IMG/VR virus record: IMGVR_UViG_3300046791_000318
Location: 1-45,698 of that record
Direction: 5' to 3' (one strand)
Source of the DNA: a virus
Length of the DNA stretch: 45,698 nucleotides
The position numbers and the translations under genes were made by a program. How positions within the stretch are numbered: position 1 is the first letter of the stretch; the number at the start of each line of letters is the position of its first letter. The notes beneath the pieces were generated by a model that was not told where the DNA came from, searched no databases, and worked only from the letters and a program-made list of their open reading frames with translations. Of this stretch, positions 22,944 to 45,698 are shown in pieces.

Positions 22944-24905
22944 ATGTCCGTCAAGATCTCCGAACTACCCGCAGCCTCCAGCGTCGACTCGGCGGACCTC
23001 ATCGTCATTGTCGACGTCTCCGAGATGGCGACGAAGCAGGCAACCGCGACGCAGATCCTTTCGGCTGCGTTCCCTGCGAACATCGGCGGCGGGCCGTTCC
23101 CCACTTCCGGCGAGCTCGCCAACTGGGCGGTCGAGGTCGACACGGGCTTCCACACGCTCCTCGCCGCGAAGATGTCGGGCGAGTCCGGTGAGACCGCCCT
23201 CATCCGTGCGGCGGACCTCGGCACCGAGTCGCGGGTCATCTTCGGTAGCGCCGGCGGCCTCGCGCGCACGCGCCTCGAGGGCACGTCCATCTCGATGGGC
23301 CCTCCCGGCATCGACGCATTCCTCATCGCCGACACGACCTACACGAACACGACGCGATGGGGCGCCTACTTCTACTCGCTTGCGTACCGCGTGGGCATCG
23401 GAGCCGATGGTTCGACGTCCTACCCCGACTTCGGCGGCACGACGGCCGGGCCGCTCCTCATGCTTGCGGAGGCCATCAGCCAGCCTTCCAACAACCCGAC
23501 CGCGGGCAGCAACGCTGTCCGGATCTGGTTCTGGGATGCTGACGGCGTCCTCAAATTCCAGTTCCCAAACGGAAGCGTCGCGAGCATTGCCAACGTCGAG
23601 GGGCGCCTCCTCTCCGAAGGCGACGAGTATCTAGCGGCCGGGGTGACCACCGACGTCCTGCCGTCGGCGGGCGAGATCCGCATGCGGCTCCCCGCGTATG
23701 GCGACTGGTGGGACATCACGACGCCGCGCGCCGATTCAAGCGACGCCGTGTCCATCATGAACGCTGGCATCGAGACGGAGTCGCCAGCGGCCGACCGCAG
23801 CGGCATCTACCTCGCCATCGGCAACGGATGGGACGGCAGCATCCCGGGCGGCGCAAACACCGTAGACACGCTCTACATCAACGCGAACGATTGGGTTGGA
23901 TGGGGCCTGGTCGGCGATCCGGACCAGCAACCCGGCCTCATCCTCTCGCGCTCCGAAACGCTGCAAGGCCTCACCGATCCGCGCGGGACCTTCTACGTCT
24001 ACAACCGCACCAACTTTGCCATCATGGGCGACAAGTCGTCCGCGCAGTGGGACGGCACCGAGTCGTTCAGTGGCGGCGATGGCGTTTTTTGCTGGGGCAA
24101 GGCGGTCATCAACCCGGACGACGGCACCCCGCCCGTGGGGAACATCGTCTGCTACGTCGACGAGGCCGACTACAACGCTTACTACCTCCGTCCCGACGGC
24201 GGCATCGTGCCCATGGGCACCGCGCCCGACGGTACCGCCGGGAAGTTCCTCGGTTGGGCCGGCTCCTCGGCGGTCTGGGGCAATGCCGCGACCTACTACG
24301 GCGCCGACAGCGGAACACTCTCGACGGTCGGCCTCGTCCGCGCGGCGAACGCTACGGCCTCCGTGGTCGCAGGGCGCGCCGCTGGCGCTGCCGACGTCAC
24401 GCTCCTTGGGCTCAGCAGCGGAGACGAATGCTTCGTTGGCTGCGACACGTCGTACGGAACCCGATGCGCGACCCTTCGCGTCTACGCGAACAGCATCATC
24501 TACATGGGCACCGGCGCAGGTGCCACCTACGTAGCCATCGGTTCCGCGACGACGGCGCTGGTCTCGGCGAACGTGTCGCTGTTCGACGTCACCGGCAGCT
24601 ACGGAAGCGGTACGGGCGTCGTATTCGTGAAGAACGCCGGCACCCCGGCGACCACGAACCCGACCGCGGGCGCGCTGTTCTGGGCGGAGGGCGGAGCGCT
24701 GAAGGGCCGAGGCTCATCGGGCGGCACCGCGACGTTCGTACCCGCCGATCCTCACTGCAAGCAGTGCGGCCGAGACATGGCCCTTGAATGGGAACACAGC
24801 CTCCACGACGAGAAGCTTGCCGTGTGCGTGCCGTGCCTGGTCAGCGCGCTCGAGGGCCTCGGCGTGCCTGTGGATGCGTTTTGCGAGCGGAGATTGCACT
24901 CATGA
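22944..24905 (+). CDS. Tail fibre with C-terminal zinc-ribbon-like end
   Basis: This 653-residue protein starts VKISELPAASSVDSADLI, the signature of many tail fibre/spike N-termini that dock to the tail. The body (about 80-600) is Gly/Ala/Thr-rich with alternating strands and many aromatic turns, typical of trimeric fibres. The last 50 residues are unusual: HCKQCGRDMALEWEH, then LAVCVPCL, a CxxC...CxxC pair suited to bind one zinc. This suggests a small metal-bound cap or a fused domain. The stop overlaps the next ATG. Known fibres mediate host recognition; the ligand here is unknown. Confidence 0.75.
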   Translation: MSVKISELPAASSVDSADLIVIVDVSEMATKQATATQILSAAFPANIGGGPFPTSGELANWAVEVDTGFHTLLAAKMSGESGETALIRAADLGTESRVIFGSAGGLARTRLEGTSISMGPPGIDAFLIADTTYTNTTRWGAYFYSLAYRVGIGADGSTSYPDFGGTTAGPLLMLAEAISQPSNNPTAGSNAVRIWFWDADGVLKFQFPNGSVASIANVEGRLLSEGDEYLAAGVTTDVLPSAGEIRMRLPAYGDWWDITTPRADSSDAVSIMNAGIETESPAADRSGIYLAIGNGWDGSIPGGANTVDTLYINANDWVGWGLVGDPDQQPGLILSRSETLQGLTDPRGTFYVYNRTNFAIMGDKSSAQWDGTESFSGGDGVFCWGKAVINPDDGTPPVGNIVCYVDEADYNAYYLRPDGGIVPMGTAPDGTAGKFLGWAGSSAVWGNAATYYGADSGTLSTVGLVRAANATASVVAGRAAGAADVTLLGLSSGDECFVGCDTSYGTRCATLRVYANSIIYMGTGAGATYVAIGSATTALVSANVSLFDVTGSYGSGTGVVFVKNAGTPATTNPTAGALFWAEGGALKGRGSSGGTATFVPADPHCKQCGRDMALEWEHSLHDEKLAVCVPCLVSALEGLGVPVDAFCERRLHS

Positions 24906-25231
24906 AGGTCACGCGAGTTGTCATCAACGATGGGCAAGTGCAGGCGGGCGTGGTCTTCGACACGGGCCCCGGCACGGTCGGACGCGCCATCGTCGACCTC
25001 CCCGAGGAGGCGTGCGCGGCCATCCTCGCCGCCGCACAGGTGGAGCTCGACAAGGGGACGGCGGAGATCTCGCAGGAGGTTCAGTCCACGGCCCTGACCA
25101 CGGAGCTCCACCGCCTCCGCAACGCCAAGCAGGAATACGCGGCGCTCTTGGTCGATCAGGCCAAGGCCATCGACGAGCACGCCGCGCGCGTCGCCGTTGC
25201 TTCTACGCCGGTGGAGGAGCCTCCGCCGTGA
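24902..25231 (+). CDS. Hypothetical protein
   Basis: This 109-residue protein has a beta-rich start (VTRVVINDGQVQAGVVFD). A long helix with heptad character follows (about 50-100, TALTTELHRLRNAKQEYAAL), then a proline-rich tail. It overlaps the fibre stop (ATGA) and the next GTG. It may be a small chaperone or adaptor for the fibre, but no family is recognised. Confidence 0.6.
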   Translation: MKVTRVVINDGQVQAGVVFDTGPGTVGRAIVDLPEEACAAILAAAQVELDKGTAEISQEVQSTALTTELHRLRNAKQEYAALLVDQAKAIDEHAARVAVASTPVEEPPP

Positions 25232-25737
25232 AGTGGCTCGGCCTCCTCCCCCACCTCCTCCTCGCATCGTGCATGGTGCCGCCGCGCCACGTCGAGGCCC
25301 CGACCGACGTCGTGGTCGCGCGATGTGACCCGCCCCCGTTCGCCTTCTACCCCGCCACGGGGTTCAGCGCCGAGGACGCGGCCACCATCCAGCAAGCCAT
25401 GGACGTGTGGAACCGCGTCACCCGGCCCGATCACCAACTCTCGTTCAGCGAGCTCTCGCACCTCCGCATTGTCTCTCTGGACCCGCCCGGCCATTACAGC
25501 GGGCAGTATCCGCCGGGGTTCGGCCTCCTCTTCGTGAAGCCTGGCGAAAGGGTCGGCCCCATCGTCGTCCACGAGCTGGGGCACGCCCTTGGCCTCTGGC
25601 ACGTGCAGACCCCTGGCGCCGTCATGTGCTCGCCGGAGCGCAACGACGGGACGATCGCCGACGTCGTCTGCGGCCAAGCTTCGGGCCTGACGCCCGCCGA
25701 CCTCGAGGAATGCCGACGCGTAGGAGCATGCCTGTGA
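25228..25737 (+). CDS. Metzincin-type zinc metalloprotease lipoprotein
   Basis: This 169-residue protein has an N-terminal signal with a lipobox (LLASC, Cys15), so it should be exported and lipid-anchored. The catalytic core is the full metzincin zinc motif HELGHALGLWH (residues 115-125), followed by a Met-turn candidate (GAVMCS, Met133). Ahead of it, QQAMDVWNRV is the matrixin-like first helix. The order and short length match compact matrixin/archaemetzincin-like peptidases. The GTG overlaps the previous stop (GTGA). It is the first gene of the lysis region. A role in envelope disruption, or in processing a surface protein, is inferred; its substrate is unknown. Confidence 0.8.
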   Translation: MKWLGLLPHLLLASCMVPPRHVEAPTDVVVARCDPPPFAFYPATGFSAEDAATIQQAMDVWNRVTRPDHQLSFSELSHLRIVSLDPPGHYSGQYPPGFGLLFVKPGERVGPIVVHELGHALGLWHVQTPGAVMCSPERNDGTIADVVCGQASGLTPADLEECRRVGACL

Positions 25738-26171
25738 ACGCCCCCAAGCCGCCTGAATACCCGACCCACAAGCTCGAAAAGCCGGACAAGATGGAGATCC
25801 TCCTCGCGGAGATCCGCGCGGAGATGCGCGACCGCTTCCACTCGCTAGAGGACCTCGTCCTTTCGTTCGGGCAACGCGTCGTCACGCTCGAGGCGAGCAC
25901 CAAGCGCCACAGCGAAGCGGCACGGGTTCCAAGCCAGCACGACCTCGATGCACAGGCCGCGTTGGCTCAGGAGATCGCGGCGCGCGAAGCGCTCGCCAAG
26001 AAGGTCGACGAGACCCACGCGCTTCTTGCCGAGAACACTGCGGCCACGACGGAGATCAAGAAGGCCGTCGTGGGCTTCTTCACGAACAAGAAGGTCATCT
26101 TTGTGGGGCGCTGCGTCTTCGCAATCGCGATGGGCTACGCCGGGCTGAAAGGCATCAAGGTGCTCCCATGA
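25734..26171 (+). CDS. Coiled-coil protein with C-terminal membrane segment (holin candidate)
   Basis: This 145-residue protein has a charged coiled coil (about 20-115). It ends with a membrane span after KKAVVGFFTNKK, namely VIFVGRCVFAIAMGYAGL (about 122-140), and a short basic tail. GTG 25734 is preferred because TAGGAG lies 7 bases before it; ATG 25728 is too close. The single C-terminal span differs from i-spanins, whose span is N-terminal. Phage proteins of this shape next to endolysins are often annotated as holins. Neighbours are a lipoprotein protease and a small lipoprotein, so a lysis role is likely but the exact one is uncertain. Confidence 0.55.
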   Translation: MNAPKPPEYPTHKLEKPDKMEILLAEIRAEMRDRFHSLEDLVLSFGQRVVTLEASTKRHSEAARVPSQHDLDAQAALAQEIAAREALAKKVDETHALLAENTAATTEIKKAVVGFFTNKKVIFVGRCVFAIAMGYAGLKGIKVLP

Positions 26172-26380
26172 GGCGCGTCGTCCTCCTCCTCGGCGCGCTC
26201 GTCGCTTGCGACCGCCCGCCGGCCATCCCGAACTACTGCAGCGACGAGCATGCGTTTACCGGGGCCCTCGTCGCCTGCGTCGAGGTCTCGGTGTCTCGCG
26301 AAGAGTCCAGGGCCTGCCGGAAGGCTGTCGAACTCCGATGCGGCATCACTGAGACGGACTCGGCAGGGGGTGCACCATGA
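26168..26380 (+). CDS. Small lipoprotein in lysis region
   Basis: This 70-residue protein starts MRRVVLLLGALVAC, a signal peptide with lipobox LVAC (Cys14). The mature part has four further cysteines (spacing about 10, 14 and 10 residues) that could form two disulfides. Overlaps by four bases on both sides. Position after a membrane protein recalls an o-spanin (Rz1), but the mature part is not proline-rich as Rz1 usually is. Lipoprotein nature is secure; function is inferred. Confidence 0.65.
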   Translation: MRRVVLLLGALVACDRPPAIPNYCSDEHAFTGALVACVEVSVSREESRACRKAVELRCGITETDSAGGAP

Positions 26381-26586
26381 GCGACCTTGCCAGCGTCGCG
26401 ACGAGCGCCGCGCGCGCCATCATCGCAGCCTCGCAGGGGGACGCGATGGGAGCGGCGGCGCACGGCCTCGAGGCTGTCCTGGAGGCCGTCCCGCACGACG
26501 TCGCTCAAAAGATGCTGAGCGATGCCGCCATCCGTCGCGCTCGCGCCGCCGCCGATGCCGAGGAGGATCGGCGATTCGACCCGTGA
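26377..26586 (+). CDS. Hypothetical small helical protein
   Basis: This 69-residue protein is almost all alanine-rich helix (SVATSAARAIIAASQGDAMG, then LEAVLEAVPHDVAQKML) with a charged C-terminal helix. It overlaps the upstream gene (ATGA). It has no signal or membrane span. No family is recognised. Confidence 0.55.
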   Translation: MSDLASVATSAARAIIAASQGDAMGAAAHGLEAVLEAVPHDVAQKMLSDAAIRRARAAADAEEDRRFDP

Positions 26587-26694
26587 CTACTTCGTCTTGC
26601 GCTTGGTCGTCCTCTTCTTCACCAGCTTCGCCGCCCCGCGCTTGGTCGTCATCGTCTTTGCCTTCGTCGTCCTCTTCACCTTCTTGATCGCCAT
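26587..26694 (-). CDS. Very basic 35-residue protein, antisense in lysis region
   Basis: The minus strand encodes MAIKKVKRTTKAKTM... with 21 Lys/Arg and 8 Thr in 35 residues and no acidic residue. A good ribosome binding site (GAGGTG, about 5 bases before the ATG) precedes it. All genes around it run rightward, and the region 26587-26723 is otherwise a gap, so the product would be a short histone-like nucleic-acid binder. The alternative is a rightward hydrophobic frame (26522-26719) over the same bases, which would make two membrane spans and could be a holin. Base composition cannot separate them, because both frames place G/C at the third position. Confidence 0.4.
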   Translation of the reverse strand: MAIKKVKRTTKAKTMTTKRGAAKLVKKRTTKRKTK

Positions 26695-26723
26695 GAGTCA
26701 CCTCGTTTCTCAGCTCTAGCACG

Positions 26724-27434
26724 ATGCGAGACGCCGTTAAATCCGCTTTCGTTCCGTTCACTACACCTCTCGAAGGTGTGGTGCCGTGGCTCTATCAGGA
26801 CGTGAAGGGCCTGGTCAGCATCGGGATCGGCAACCTCGTCGACCCGATCGTGCTCGCCATGGTGCTCCCGCTCGTTCGCGCGGATGGCACGCCAGCACAG
26901 CGCGATGAGATCGCGGCGGAGTGGCTTCGCGTGAAGAACCAGGGCCCCGACGGTCGCGGGCGCACGGCGGCGGAGCTCGGGCACACATACGCGCGCAAGG
27001 TCACGACCCTCCACCTCACCGACGAGGGCATCGAGCGGCTCGTGGGCGGCAAGCTCGATCAGATGGATCGCTACCTCGCCGCGCGGTTCCCCGAATACCC
27101 CGGATGGCCGGCCGACGCGCAGCTCGGGACGCTGTCGATGGCGTGGGCCTGCGGCCCGGCCTTCCGCTTCCCGAAGCTCGAGGCCGCCCTCCGCGCGTGC
27201 GACTTCGACACCGCCGCGGTCGAATGCTTCATGCCAGAGGAGGCGACGATCAGCGGCCTCCGCCCTCGGAACAAGGCGAACCGCGTGCTGTTTCGCAACG
27301 CCACGCGCTCGCCAGATCCCGACGTCCTCTTTTGGCCGCGCGACCTCGCCTCCGAGGCCAACACGCTTCCCCAATTCGACGTGGTGCACCCGTGCCTCTT
27401 CACCGACGACGACGACCCCCCGGAGACGACGTAA
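26724..27434 (+). CDS. Endolysin, T4-lysozyme-type muramidase
   Basis: This 236-residue protein has the GH24 active-site region near its N-terminus: E17 in PLEGVVP, D26 in LYQDVKG and S32 in VSIGIGNL. The spacing E-9-D-6-S equals E11-D20-T26 of T4 lysozyme, with Ser in place of Thr and Asn in place of the usual His after GYG. These enzymes cut the MurNAc-GlcNAc bond. A helical lobe follows (about 60-150). A GPAFRFPKLEAALRACDFDTAA segment resembles the C-terminal lobe of phage muramidases. The last 50 residues are extra, with no recognised cell-wall-binding repeat. It closes the lysis region. Confidence 0.75.
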   Translation: MRDAVKSAFVPFTTPLEGVVPWLYQDVKGLVSIGIGNLVDPIVLAMVLPLVRADGTPAQRDEIAAEWLRVKNQGPDGRGRTAAELGHTYARKVTTLHLTDEGIERLVGGKLDQMDRYLAARFPEYPGWPADAQLGTLSMAWACGPAFRFPKLEAALRACDFDTAAVECFMPEEATISGLRPRNKANRVLFRNATRSPDPDVLFWPRDLASEANTLPQFDVVHPCLFTDDDDPPETT

Positions 27435-31028: not shown

Positions 31029-31270
31029 GGCTCCTCGGATGTAGCACGGCCGGGAATGGTGCTCTGAGGCACAGAACGCAATGCCTCACGCGCGACCTGG
31101 GCGCACTTCATGTCGCAGCAGTCTCCGTACGACGGCGTGTAGCAGCCCTCTCCACCCTCTATCTTGTCGAGCGCTTCTACGAGCTGCTCAACCCGAGCCC
31201 GGAGGCCATCCCGCTCTGCGGTCAGGTCGTCGACAAGTCCCTCGAGTTCCTCAATACGGTCTGCACTCAT
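31025..31270 (-). CDS. Coiled-coil protein with Cys cluster
   Basis: This 81-residue protein has an N-terminal coiled coil (IEELEGLVDDLTAERDGLR, about 6-24). A GEGCYTP...DCCDMKC patch with four cysteines and a basic C-terminal part follow. Such helix-plus-CC proteins recur in phage early operons. The ATG is set in the repeated cassette ATCCGAGGAACC-ATGAG. Function unknown. Confidence 0.6.
   Translation of the reverse strand: MSADRIEELEGLVDDLTAERDGLRARVEQLVEALDKIEGGEGCYTPSYGDCCDMKCAQVAREALRSVPQSTIPGRATSEEP
31029..31040 (-). promoter_or_regulatory. Repeated translation-initiation cassette (copies also at 31271-31282 and 32005-32016)
   Basis: The minus-strand 12-mer ATCCGAGGARCC occurs three times at gene junctions in this operon. 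In two it is followed at once by ATGAG, the next start codon. In the third the start lies 14 bases further. GAGGA in the 12-mer is the ribosome binding site, and the same bases code the C-terminal SEEP of the upstream protein. This links translation of adjacent genes. Confidence 0.6.
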
Positions 31271-31710
31271 GGTTCCTCGGATCTACTCTCCAAGGGTCCG
31301 ATCGAGATCTGAAGCCCGTCCCCGTAACCGGACCCGTCCCCGGACCCGTCCCCGTACCCGGACCCGTCCCCGGACCCGTACCCGTACCCGTACCCGGACC
31401 CGTCCCCGTACCCGGACCCGTCCCCGGACCCGTACCCGTACCCGTACCCGGACCCGTCCCCGTACCCGGACCCGTCCCCGGACCCGTACCCGTCCCCGTC
31501 CCCGGACCCGTACCCGTCCCCGTACCCGTACCCGTACCCGGACCCGTCCCCGGACCCGTCCCCGGACCCGTACCCGGACCCGGACCCGGACAGCTCGAAC
31601 GCTTCCACGTCCGAGCTCAGAAAGTCAGTCGCTCGTGCTCCGCGTTCGCGGGCCCAATCGTCGAGCACCTCAATCGCGCCATGACTCCCATGCTCCGCCG
31701 CACGAAGCAT
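31267..31710 (-). CDS. Protein with 46 tandem Gly-(Ser/Asp/Tyr) dipeptides
   Basis: This 147-residue protein has a short helical N-terminus (MLRAAEHGSHGAIEVLDDWA, about 1-20) leading to DVEAFEL. It then has 46 dipeptides with Gly alternating with Ser (17), Tyr (16) or Asp (13), and a 15-residue end (LQISIGPLESRSEEP). It is coded by hexamers in which only two bases vary. ATG 31710 has a GAGAGG SD; TTG 31737 is an alternative. Its stop is part of an ATGA overlap and all neighbours run leftward, so this strand is the coding one. The low-complexity Tyr/Gly/Ser composition resembles self-associating disordered domains. No enzyme motif is present. Confidence 0.8.
   Translation of the reverse strand: MLRAAEHGSHGAIEVLDDWARERGARATDFLSSDVEAFELSGSGSGYGSGDGSGDGSGYGYGYGDGYGSGDGDGYGSGDGSGYGDGSGYGYGYGSGDGSGYGDGSGYGYGYGSGDGSGYGDGSGDGSGYGDGLQISIGPLESRSEEP
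31315..31590 (-). repeat. 46-unit hexanucleotide repeat, variable at two positions
   Basis: On the minus strand each six-base unit is (TAC, GAC or TCC) followed by GGG. Only one unit (31327-31332) departs, having GGT. No indel breaks the phase over 276 bases. A nine-unit (54-base) pattern S-D-S-Y-D-S-Y-Y-Y occurs twice in a row, followed by a partial third, so larger blocks have duplicated recently. The glycine codon is GGG in 45 of 46 units, although the surrounding genes use GGC and others freely. Confidence 0.95.
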
Positions 31711-32521: not shown

Positions 32522-32723
32522 TGTCCGTGCTCCGAATCGGCGAGACCACGTACTTGACGCACCGAACAGTGAAGAAGTCACCCCGGCCGGTCTCGCTCAG
32601 ATAGCGCGCAGCATCCGTTTTGGCTTCGGCTCGCGTCGCGTAGAAAAAGGGCATGTAGCTGACCTCCCCGTCGTCGTCGCGAAGACGCGCTAGCCACACG
32701 TGCCTGTCGATGGTGTCAGCCAT
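32514..32723 (-). CDS. Hypothetical protein (small alpha/beta)
   Basis: This 69-residue protein starts MADTIDRHVWLARLRDD, has EVSYMPFFYATRAEAKTDAARYL and ends SPIRSTDNG. The strand-helix-strand order suggests a compact alpha/beta fold such as those that regulate nucleases or restriction, but nothing specific. The last residues STDNG are shared with the upstream gene because the eight-base overlap (GACAATGGSTGA) is duplicated. Confidence 0.55.
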   Translation of the reverse strand: MADTIDRHVWLARLRDDDGEVSYMPFFYATRAEAKTDAARYLSETGRGDFFTVRCVKYVVSPIRSTDNG

Positions 32724-33366
32724 TGTCAGTGCTCCCGGTCGGCACAGATCCGAAAAGAGACCCTTGCCTGTTTGCGTCATGCCACCAGCGCTCGAACCGA
32801 GCCCAGTGCGATCCGGGGCCAACGCTCCAGAGCATCTGCGAGGAGTCGGCCGAGTCGGCCCCGCAGTCGAGCGCCGCCTTCAGGCGGTTCTCCGTCGAGA
32901 CGCGGGCATAGTGGAATCGCTTGCCATGCTCGTGCGCGAGCTCGCGCCACATGGGAGCGGTGGCCTTGAACGCGTCAGTGCCGCCCAGGAAGAGCCCGGC
33001 GAGATCGGGGAGCACGGCGGCGACTTCGGCGCGCGTCATGCCGTCTTGGACAGCGAGATACCACGGCAGGTCAGGGAGCACGGCACGCCAGCGGAGCGAG
33101 TGAGCGATCGACGCCGAGCCCCCGCCGACGATGTCGGGGAGCACGGCCAGCGTCGGAGCGTGCAGGCCTTCGGAGGCCTCGACGCTCTTCAGGAAGGCGG
33201 CGGCGCTCCACTTCGTCTGAGCCTTCCAGGCCGAGAACACGCCGTTGTCTAGCGCCCATGGCTCGCCCTTGCGCGGGGTCGGCTTCTCGACGAAGAGCCT
33301 TCCCCAGCCGTTGGCGCGAGCGCGATCGATCATCCGATGCGTGCGCGTGGAGCCGATGAACAGCAT
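32716..33366 (-). CDS. dpdA: DpdA-like DNA transglycosylase (7-deazaguanine insertion)
   Basis: This 216-residue protein follows queC in a TGATG overlap. Its segments parallel the phage DpdA family, relatives of tRNA-guanine transglycosylase that swap guanine in DNA for a 7-deazaguanine base. They are MLFIGSTRTHRM, WALDNGVFSAW (D40), LAVLPDIVGG (D78, a candidate catalytic acid), PWYLAVQDGM (like the PVLQGW strand), GLFLGGTDAF (the base-binding GG) and a late ADSADSSQMLW. The barrel-like order of strands is the same. It is short for TGT (about 370) but like compact phage DpdA. An alternative is an unrelated TIM-barrel protein, but adjacency to queC makes DNA modification the best reading. Confidence 0.72.
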   Translation of the reverse strand: MLFIGSTRTHRMIDRARANGWGRLFVEKPTPRKGEPWALDNGVFSAWKAQTKWSAAAFLKSVEASEGLHAPTLAVLPDIVGGGSASIAHSLRWRAVLPDLPWYLAVQDGMTRAEVAAVLPDLAGLFLGGTDAFKATAPMWRELAHEHGKRFHYARVSTENRLKAALDCGADSADSSQMLWSVGPGSHWARFERWWHDANRQGSLFGSVPTGSTDNG

Positions 33367-34064
33367 CACGCAACCTCTCGCTGCGGATCGCCGCCAGTCA
33401 TCTTCACGGGCGTGCAGAGGTCCTCGATGCCGAGCCCGGCGAACCCGGCCGCACGCTTGACGCAGGCGCCGCACGTGCCGCACGGGCCCTCGCTGCGGTA
33501 GCAGGACCAGGACCGACGCACGAGGTCGAAGGCCTTCTCGTCGGGCTGAACCGCGTACAGGATCTGCTGCTTCGCCATGTCGGCCCACGGCGTCTTGATG
33601 GCCACCAGCCGAGCGCAGGCATTTGTGAGCGCGAATGCGAGGTGAGCCAGGACCACGGGCCGGCAGTCCGGGAACCCGGCCTGGTCCTCCGCACACGCCC
33701 CGATGACGATGTCGAAGGCGTCAGGCCACCACGTGCAGGCGTGGGCAACGGCGATGGTCGCGAAGAGCGCATTCCGACCGGGGACAAATGCGCGGTCGAT
33801 GCCGCAGGCCAGGCCAGGCGCTGGGATCTCGCCCAGGATGCCGGCGGGTTGCTGCGGGCGGAGGGCGTCGGCGACCGCGATCCCGACGTACGGCACACCG
33901 AGCGTGTCGCAGGCGCGACGGGCCGACGTGAGCTCGGCGTCGCGGTTCGCCTGGCCGTAGTCGATCCCGAAGGCGCGGACGTCGGTGTAGCGCTGGATTG
34001 CCCAGCAAAGGGCGGCGGTCGAGTCGAGCCCTCCGGAGAGGAGGACCACGGCGTGCTGAATCAT
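33366..34064 (-). CDS. queC: 7-cyano-7-deazaguanine synthase (QueC)
   Basis: This 232-residue enzyme turns 7-carboxy-7-deazaguanine into preQ0 using ATP and ammonia. It has the PP-loop SGGLDST (residues 10-16), GIDYGQ (33-38), FVPGRNALFATIA (93-105), and the C-terminal zinc site CYRSEGPCGTCGAC (Cys188, 195, 198 and 201). All diagnostic residues are present and the length is full. It starts in an ATGA overlap and ends in a TGATG overlap with the DpdA-like gene. No FolE, QueD or QueE is in the window, so precursors must come from host metabolism. Confidence 0.95.
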   Translation of the reverse strand: MIQHAVVLLSGGLDSTAALCWAIQRYTDVRAFGIDYGQANRDAELTSARRACDTLGVPYVGIAVADALRPQQPAGILGEIPAPGLACGIDRAFVPGRNALFATIAVAHACTWWPDAFDIVIGACAEDQAGFPDCRPVVLAHLAFALTNACARLVAIKTPWADMAKQQILYAVQPDEKAFDLVRRSWSCYRSEGPCGTCGACVKRAAGFAGLGIEDLCTPVKMTGGDPQREVA

Positions 34065-38767: not shown

Positions 38768-38946
38768 TTGCCACCTCGACGCTCGGGGCGGCTAGGCCAA
38801 TAGGAGAGGTGTCCGGCGCAGCGCGCGACCGAGATGCCCGCGACGGAGCTACCGCAGACCTCGCAGGTCTCGCGAGGCGGCGTCACGTCGGCGACGCTCG
38901 GCATGACGTCGTGCGGCCCGCTCGACTTCCAGGCGTCGTAACTCAC
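38764..38946 (-). CDS. Small Cys-motif protein
   Basis: This 60-residue protein uses GTG 38946, which overlaps the upstream stop (GTGA). It has TCEVCGSSVAGISVARCAGH, a CxxC...C-x2-H finger, and a basic end. Longer in-frame extension upstream is unlikely because it would run through the previous gene. Function unknown. Confidence 0.55.
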   Translation of the reverse strand: MSYDAWKSSGPHDVMPSVADVTPPRETCEVCGSSVAGISVARCAGHLSYWPSRPERRGGK

Positions 38947-39213: not shown

Positions 39214-39420
39214 ATGCGACTCTCCGCGCTCGTGCTCACCGCGCTTCTTGGGTGCTCGTCTGGCCGAACCGAGGCCGACTGCGAGCGCATCGCCGCCAAC
39301 ATCCGCAAGGCCGCCGCTCAGCAGGGGTTCCCGACGCAGGGGATCTGCAACAATCCCAACGCCACGGCTTTCAAGGCCGCGTGTGACGACCTCCACGCCT
39401 GCAACGACGAGGCGGACTAG
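39214..39420 (+). CDS. Small lipoprotein next to the immunity region
   Basis: This 68-residue protein starts MRLSALVLTALLGCSSG, a signal peptide with lipobox LLGC (Cys14). The mature 55 residues have four cysteines (CERIAANI, GICNN, ACDDLHAC) likely to form disulfides in the periplasm. It is rightward, isolated between the divergent early promoter and the repressor gene, which is where lysogeny genes expressed from the prophage often sit. A role in superinfection exclusion is possible by analogy, not shown. Confidence 0.65.
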   Translation: MRLSALVLTALLGCSSGRTEADCERIAANIRKAAAQQGFPTQGICNNPNATAFKAACDDLHACNDEAD

Positions 39421-44087: not shown

Positions 44088-44557
44088 GTCAGGCAGTCAC
44101 GCGTACGCGCGCGAAGGCGGTCACGTCGTCGGAGCTGGAGGTCCGCGTCGCGGAGATCCGCATGCGTATGCGGGCCGGGCTGTGGAAGCGGGGTGAGACG
44201 GCCCTCGAGCTCGCGGAGGTGTGGGGTGTGACGCAGGCGACCGTCGAGGGCTACTCGGCGGAGGCATGGCGTAGGGTGTGTGCGGAGGCCGACGACGCCA
44301 GCGCGGCGCGGCCGACCATCGCGGGGACGCTGGCCATTGCGTTCGAGCAAGCGGCGGTAGCCAAGGAGTTCCGGGCTGTGGCCTCGCTCGCTGACACGTG
44401 GAGCAAGGTCGTAGGGGCGCGGGCGCCTGAGCGTCACGAGCACGCGCACGTCGTGGCGCAGTTCGAGGCCTTGCCGCGTGAGGGGAAGGTCGCATGGCTC
44501 CGCGAGCGCGCGGCGAAACTGATCACGGAAGCGGATCGGTTGGAAGTCGAGGGATAA
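44084..44557 (+). CDS. Terminase small subunit, right copy (complete)
   Basis: This 157-residue protein has an N-terminal helix-turn-helix-like region (RGETALELAEVWGVTQATVE, about 37-56) and a helical C-terminal part. It binds the packaging site and recruits TerL. It is homologous to the truncated copy at 2-337 over their whole shared length, with the first 106 shared bases identical. Its C-terminus (EADRLEVEG) is different. It overlaps the previous gene (ATGA), and a hairpin and an endonuclease gene follow instead of terL. Confidence 0.8.
   Translation: MSQAVTRTRAKAVTSSELEVRVAEIRMRMRAGLWKRGETALELAEVWGVTQATVEGYSAEAWRRVCAEADDASAARPTIAGTLAIAFEQAAVAKEFRAVASLADTWSKVVGARAPERHEHAHVVAQFEALPREGKVAWLRERAAKLITEADRLEVEG
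44230..44335 (+). repeat. Right end of terminal overlap, identical to 1-106
   Basis: The block matches bases 1-106 without a difference, within terS. After it the two copies differ about 15% (estimated by eye) until the divergence ends near 45509. This is the closure point of a circular genome, or the joining of two strains. Confidence 0.85.
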
Positions 44558-45074: not shown

Positions 45075-45698
45075 ACGCTGCAGAGCTCGCGGCGATTGAG
45101 ACCATCCTGCAGCGTGGGCGGCAGACAAACTACTGCCCCCATCGTCCGCACCCCAAGCAAGCCGAGTTCATCGCACTCGATTGCCATGAGGCGCTCTACG
45201 GAGGCGCCGCGGGCGGCGGCAAGTCGGATGCGTTGCTCATGGCGGCACTTCAATACGTCCACGTCCCCGGATACTCGGCGCTGGTCATGCGTCGCACCTA
45301 CCCCGATCTGTCACTCCCCGGCGCCATCATGGATCGCGCGCGCCAATGGATGGCCAACACGGATGCAACGTGGAACGACCGCGACAAGAGATTCACGTTT
45401 CCCAGCGGCGCGACGCTTCAATTTGGCTACTGCGACACGGAACGCGACCGCTACCGCTACCAAGGCGCTGAGTTTCAGTACATCGGCATCGATGAGCTAA
45501 CTCAATGGCCAGAGGCGTGGTACCGCTACCTCTTCTCGCGCCTCCGTCGCCTTGTGGGCACCGAGGTTCCGATGCGCGTGCGCGCCGCCACGAACCCCGG
45601 CGGCATCGGCCACGAATGGGTGCGGCGTCGGTTCATCGAGCCCGGCGACGACGAGCGGCCATTCATCGCGGCACGCCTTGACGACAACCCGAGCCTCG
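45071..45698 (+). CDS. terL: Terminase large subunit, right copy (3' truncated)
   Basis: The first 209 residues of a second terL allele, cut by the window end. It starts at GTG 45071, overlapping the endonuclease stop (GTGA), and begins with the same NAAELAAIE pattern. It carries Walker A (GGAAGGGKS) and Walker B (YIGIDELTQ). The protein differs from the left copy at many positions up to about residue 146. From 45509 the DNA is nearly identical to 762-951. Confidence 0.9.
   Translation, partial: MNAAELAAIETILQRGRQTNYCPHRPHPKQAEFIALDCHEALYGGAAGGGKSDALLMAALQYVHVPGYSALVMRRTYPDLSLPGAIMDRARQWMANTDATWNDRDKRFTFPSGATLQFGYCDTERDRYRYQGAEFQYIGIDELTQWPEAWYRYLFSRLRRLVGTEVPMRVRAATNPGGIGHEWVRRRFIEPGDDERPFIAARLDDNPSL
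45509..45698 (+). repeat. Right copy of the near-identical terL block
   Basis: These 190 bases match 762-951 with a few substitutions, after a divergent stretch. The offset of the two shared blocks differs by 518 bases, the net length of the inserted endonuclease region. Confidence 0.85.

Follow-up and report, generated by a model that had tools for sequence, protein, structure and literature searches.

A compact metzincin (matrixin-like) lipoprotein opens a block of overlapping genes that leads to a putative endolysin in an uncultivated phage genome, and exported metzincins occupy the same position in distantly related phages. This suggests that a protease assists some phages in breaking the host open. 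Judged from its sequence, the chances are about even that the protein is an accessory protease of lysis with envelope proteins as its substrates.

The window, meaning the whole stretch of DNA that was analysed, is a single IMG/VR record (IMGVR_UViG_3300046791_000318) of 45,698 bases with a GC content of 0.67. It contains matches to a large terminase, a major head protein and an integrase, and, on this gene content, it is probably an uncultivated temperate tailed phage. When 379 genomes from the phylum to which a Myxococcales assembly belongs were searched, 3 had portal matches, and the Myxococcota contigs G031:C34, G121:C39 and G322:C952 point to possible lysogens of the clade. Among NCBIfam metzincins, the one closest to the window protein was myxobacterial. 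The host is likely Gram-negative and outer-membrane-bearing, with a probable Myxococcota association. The end of the window repeats its start (44230-44515 repeats 1-286 at 90.6% identity, and 45146-45698 repeats 399-951 at 82.9% identity). These repeats are a second, diverged start of the terminase gene, so the contig may be a join of two related phages or a chimera. On the minus strand, a QueC homologue (33366-34064; PF06508, 137.7 bits) adjoins a PHROG 15826 protein (32716-33366), a possible sign of 7-deazaguanine DNA modification, and a Gly/Ser/Tyr/Asp repeat protein (GSGYGDGSG...) is encoded at 31267-31608.

The metzincin gene (25228-25737, plus strand) begins with a GTG codon at 25228, shortly downstream of GGAGGAG, and its 169-codon ORF ends at 25737. 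The N-terminus, VKWLGLLPHLLLASC, is a short signal with the lipobox LASC and Cys15, which corresponds to a short SPII signal peptide, VKWLGLLPHLLLAS-C; lipidation is predicted. The zinc site HExxHxxGxxH is present as HELGHALGLWH at residues 115-125, and the protein also contains the Met-turn TPGAVMCS (Met133) and a C-terminal LTxxDLxxC motif that is common to its relatives. When 12 small exported metzincins were aligned, the zinc ligands, the catalytic Glu, the Met of the Met-turn and one Trp were invariant, and the lipobox Cys was aligned in 11. The zinc-site pattern occurred once in the six frames of the window and only twice in 200 mononucleotide shuffles, so it is not a chance occurrence. 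The protein scored above the cut-off for Pfam Matrixin (PF00413, 31.4 bits; cut-off 24) and for Astacin (24.5 bits; cut-off 22.5), and the nearest PDB sequences were catalytic domains of the MMP and BMP1 types (E 1e-4 to 3e-3). The initial annotation of a 169-residue lipid-anchored metzincin with these motifs is thus borne out, and the protein is predicted to be exported and catalytically active.

Like the matrixins, the window protein combines HExxHxxGxxH, a Met-turn and an above-cut-off profile score. It differs from them in having neither a propeptide nor a haemopexin domain, being a minimal domain of ~155 residues after the lipid Cys, and its N-terminal half is barely alignable. The best NCBIfam match was to the MXAN_2677/2678 myxosortase-dependent metalloproteases (NF041905), which are alike in the active-site region but differ in score and length (24.5 bits vs a cut-off of 250; 169 aa vs a 283-position model). 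No PHROGs family was found for the protein. Its AlphaFold model (mean pLDDT 56) was too poor for use, the top PDB match being the BMP1 protease domain at E 0.012 and TM 0.27. A cysteine-switch role for the Cys in VVVARCDPPP was rejected, as the proteins of two relatives (G019 and G027) have no Cys there.

The initial annotation had placed the metzincin at the head of the lysis region, and the gene indeed opens a block of overlapping genes; the five genes from 24902 to 26586 overlap end to end by 4 to 10 nt each. The last gene before the metzincin encodes a 109-aa protein with no assigned function (24902-25231, plus) and overlaps it by 4 nt. The metzincin is followed by a 147-aa protein (25728-26171, plus) without a family match, in which a charged, probably coiled-coil N-terminal part precedes a single weak transmembrane segment at residues 122-140 (KD 1.57). 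Its layout resembles that of L178:11369-11794 and would fit an XhlA-like or accessory holin-like arrangement. Next come a 70-aa Cys-rich lipoprotein (26168-26380, plus) with an LVAC lipobox, a conserved AC..ACR..V...G pattern and ~57 mature residues, which had no family match, and a 69-aa helical protein (26377-26586, plus) with an AQKMLSxxAxRRA...ADA core. Both are conserved in the cassettes of relatives (HMM E 4.9e-9 and 3.6e-9, respectively). The membrane protein and the lipoprotein thus follow the metzincin as first described, but two more ORFs precede the endolysin, namely the 69-aa gene and a 35-aa Lys/Thr-rich basic ORF (26587-26694, minus) with an SD-like GAGG, whose strand and identity are uncertain. 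Antisense to this ORF lies a strongly hydrophobic plus-strand frame (26597-26719), which was considered as a holin; the Lys-rich ORF opposite it is the one with the SD-like site.

The 236-aa endolysin (26724-27434, plus) is called lysozyme-like (GH24-type) from weak profile matches and from a relative. Its matches to PF00959 (E 0.19) and to PHROG 7 'endolysin' (E 0.03) were both weak and sub-threshold. Over 201 aa, it shares 42% identity (E 2e-39) with a lysozyme-like protein of the related genome G026, which matched PF00959 somewhat better, at E 0.011 and 16.5 bits, and also stayed below the cut-off of 22.3, so that neither protein passes the GH24-type profile. The EG...YxD motif is conserved at Glu17 and Asp26; the AlphaFold model of the window endolysin (pLDDT 43) was uninformative. 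The deposited phage MW202476 encodes an endolysin 39.5% identical to that of the window, with a 156-aa membrane/Cys-rich protein upstream, and the plus strand of the 10.6 kb examined had no metzincin motif.

Distant relatives were found by portal alignment and by metzincin pattern and alignment scans. The portals of five genomes (G019, G027, G028, G410 (L242), and G411 (L243)) are homologues of the window portal, with ~25% identity in the distant members, and these genomes share a large virion protein and a ~130-aa protein followed by the metzincin block; in G411, the ~130-aa gene comes after the metzincin and not before it. In all five, the block runs from the metzincin lipoprotein (207-227 aa) through a membrane protein of 55-62 aa and a Cys-rich lipoprotein (~77-98 aa) to a 49-83 aa protein with an AQxMLS-type core. 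As the initial annotation had proposed to look for, the block lies beside a lytic enzyme in distant clade members: the neighbour is a GH25 enzyme in G027 (73.7 bits), a sub-threshold Rv2525c-type GH-like protein in G019 and G028, and a lysozyme-like protein with PG_binding_1 in G410, while the 288-aa candidate in G411 had no Pfam match. When HMMs built from the relatives alone were run against the 366 ORFs of the window, the metzincin (E 4.2e-9, a match due mainly to the active-site motif), the lipoprotein at 26168 and the 69-aa gene were the only significant matches, and they kept their order. Outside the active site, the clade metzincins align poorly.

In total, this place in the late operon holds an exported metzincin in eight clade members. 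They include G412 and G414, in which it lies among small transmembrane proteins; both genomes were found via their metzincins and are therefore no measure of metzincin frequency. More generally, the number of carriers is biased because several were found by metzincin searches, but their gene positions are not. The metzincin lipoprotein of clade member G412 comes directly after a trypsin-like lipoprotein (PF13365, 53.7 bits), which puts two envelope proteases one behind the other (L256:3956-5171). At least three relatives keep the membrane-protein and lipoprotein part without a metzincin. The order is membrane protein, lipoprotein and lysozyme-like protein in G025 and G026, and membrane protein, Cys-rich lipoprotein and AQxMLS-type protein in the Myxococcales contig G031:C34. 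The metzincin must therefore be dispensable for some members, and, by this comparison of gene content, it heads a conserved region without being obligatory there. The G024 record that was searched yielded no metzincin.

Consistent with the initial annotation, which had seen no clear spanin pair, a lipobox and transmembrane scan found no canonical two-component or unimolecular spanin among the called genes of the window. The scan followed the definitions of a published survey (PMC6139136), and divergent spanins could escape it; for many of the known i-spanins, no coiled coil is predicted (PMC6139136). Lipoproteins were identified at 25228, 26168 and 39214, along with a doubtful 35-aa ORF at 38834. 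Near them, no protein with an N-terminal transmembrane segment and a periplasmic helical domain was found, and none of the called genes combined a lipobox with a C-terminal transmembrane segment. The lipoprotein at 39214 (39214-39420, plus) is a further small Cys-rich one, distant from the lysis region. The cassette resembles Rz/Rz1 in that a small lipoprotein gene overlaps a membrane-protein gene, and the lipoprotein at 26168 may be like an o-spanin that lacks its partner. It differs in that there is no recognisable i-spanin, the membrane partner being a protein with a helical part before a C-terminal transmembrane segment in the window and a 55-62 aa membrane protein in the relatives, and in that spanin systems have no protease.

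A precedent for a protease in phage lysis comes from Listeria monocytogenes, in which the secreted metzincin Mtz and the lipoprotein Tim are phage-derived and are often encoded downstream of holin-lysin genes in prophages (PMC8235301). Mtz/Tim enhances holin-lysin lysis, with ~5-fold more released virions, and active Mtz is required; upon co-expression of active Mtz, cells lyse under phage induction and otherwise only arrest growth (PMC8235301). Both systems place a phage-linked metzincin near a lipoprotein, frequently beside holin-lysin genes in the prophages; in the window, the two genes lie in the lysis block with one gene between them, and the comparison with Mtz/Tim covers the metzincin motif. 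They differ in that Listeria is Gram-positive and its lipoprotein is Tim, whereas here the protease itself bears the lipobox, and in that the Listeria pair lies beside a CI/Cro switch, whereas that of the window belongs to a late operon that includes the endolysin gene. A survey of the lytic proteins of prokaryotic viruses covers endolysins, holins, spanins and few others, and the term metallopeptidase is absent from it (PMC12596118). The proposal that a protease takes part in lysis is partly supported: the position at the head of the block, the conservation of the block in distant relatives, the negative scan for canonical spanins and the published case, in which a phage-linked metzincin enhances lysis through its catalytic activity, speak for it, and the relatives that have the cassette without a metzincin speak against it.

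If the window metzincin is an accessory lysis protease, it would be co-transcribed late with the membrane protein, the Cys-rich lipoprotein and the endolysin. Export by Sec and lipidation at Cys15 would yield a periplasmic or outer-membrane zinc protease. Its substrates would be envelope proteins, either the tethers between outer membrane and peptidoglycan or the neighbouring phage lipoprotein, and this cleavage would help the envelope to give way after the endolysin has cut the peptidoglycan. Several of the cassette neighbours have no family match, and the lysis label is given by position.

Among the alternatives, we regard it as unlikely that the gene is cargo (a moron), that is, a Myxococcota-derived surface lipoprotein protease that sits at the late operon's 3' end and is expressed by the lysogen to serve superinfection exclusion or host benefit. 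The closest curated cellular family is MXAN_2677/2678 (NF041905; E 1e-5 for the window protein and 4e-9 for that of G027, both sub-cut-off), a similar lipoprotein lies beside a P22_AR_N antirepressor in a Myxococcales contig, the presence of the metzincin is variable, and the window has an integrase. However, the start and stop of the gene overlap both neighbours, its codon-position GC (0.72/0.49/0.87) is typical of the phage, and the same slot is used in distant relatives. A consensus scan, which is weak evidence, found no promoter-like or terminator-like sites around the metzincin or elsewhere inside the 24902-26586 block. The overlaps, the lack of such internal sites and the phage codon bias together favour late co-expression and disfavour autonomous cargo.

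Somewhat less probable again is a maturase role, in which the metzincin would cut either the membrane protein or the Cys-rich lipoprotein, and the fragment set free, rather than the protease, would weaken the envelope, as proposed for Mtz/Tim. At least six clade members have metzincin and lipoprotein together in the cassette, and Mtz cleaves Tim, both being required for the lysis effect (PMC8235301); but G031:C34 keeps the Cys-rich lipoprotein without a cassette metzincin, and the window lipoprotein has few mature residues. At a similarly low level we place the idea that the metzincin replaces a spanin outright, digesting the proteins that tether the outer membrane to the cell wall with no membrane fusion; on this reading, the position could be taken by more than one type of protease, as with the trypsin-like lipoprotein of G412.

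Metzincins in other phages were found in varied settings. Metzincin lipoproteins lie inside a tail operon (G010), antisense after a fibre gene (G006), and beside DNA-methyltransferase-like genes (L244/L246/L247), all with neighbours judged by eye; such proteins are therefore not lysis-bound in phages at large. The initial annotation held that unrelated genome positions would speak against a lysis role, and such positions occur across phages at large and not within the clade. In G018, a metzincin follows a 52-aa transmembrane protein and a lipoprotein among fibre genes. In G008 and G009, contigs outside the portal set with baseplate-like and tail-fibre-like genes, the metzincin (P0009, P0010) is fused behind a coiled-coil/transmembrane segment after a tail fibre; the next gene in G009 is a 173-aa ORF with a wall-hydrolase look by eye and no family match. 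Single ORFs of this kind at L113:3299-4000 and L042:12164-12790, after a tail fibre, combine a coiled-coil/transmembrane segment, a lipobox-like site and a metzincin. At L269:3644-4588, a metzincin lies behind a peptidoglycan-binding-like stretch, and its PRCGCPD resembles the MMP cysteine switch.

Searches of deposited genomes yielded little. A tblastn search with three such metzincins against 50,697 deposited phage genomes gave no convincing counterpart, with P0008 and P0009 having no match there, and no viral relatives turned up when the metzincin, the endolysin and the membrane protein of the window were used as single queries. Weak tblastn matches to Synechococcus proteins annotated as exonuclease and to an Acinetobacter contig labelled phage, where Matrixin genes adjoin dnaK, were rejected. 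The large lipoproteins of L006-L009 and the ~270-aa non-exported proteins common in pattern matches were left out as metzincins of another kind, and L107/L048 for their host-like look with cytochrome-type lipoprotein neighbours.

A virion-associated protease, packaged with tail proteins and with the host surface or virion precursors as its target, is the least probable reading: the window metzincin follows virion/fibre genes and those of G010 and G018 lie within tail or fibre genes, but the lipobox and signal peptide would route the protein to the envelope and the gene travels with small membrane-protein and lipoprotein genes.

As an accessory lysis protease, the conserved, optional metzincin at the head of the lysis cassette would be a concrete candidate for breaching the outer membrane in phages without recognisable spanins. 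It would also carry what was seen with Mtz/Tim over to phages whose hosts probably have an outer membrane and are associated with Myxococcota.
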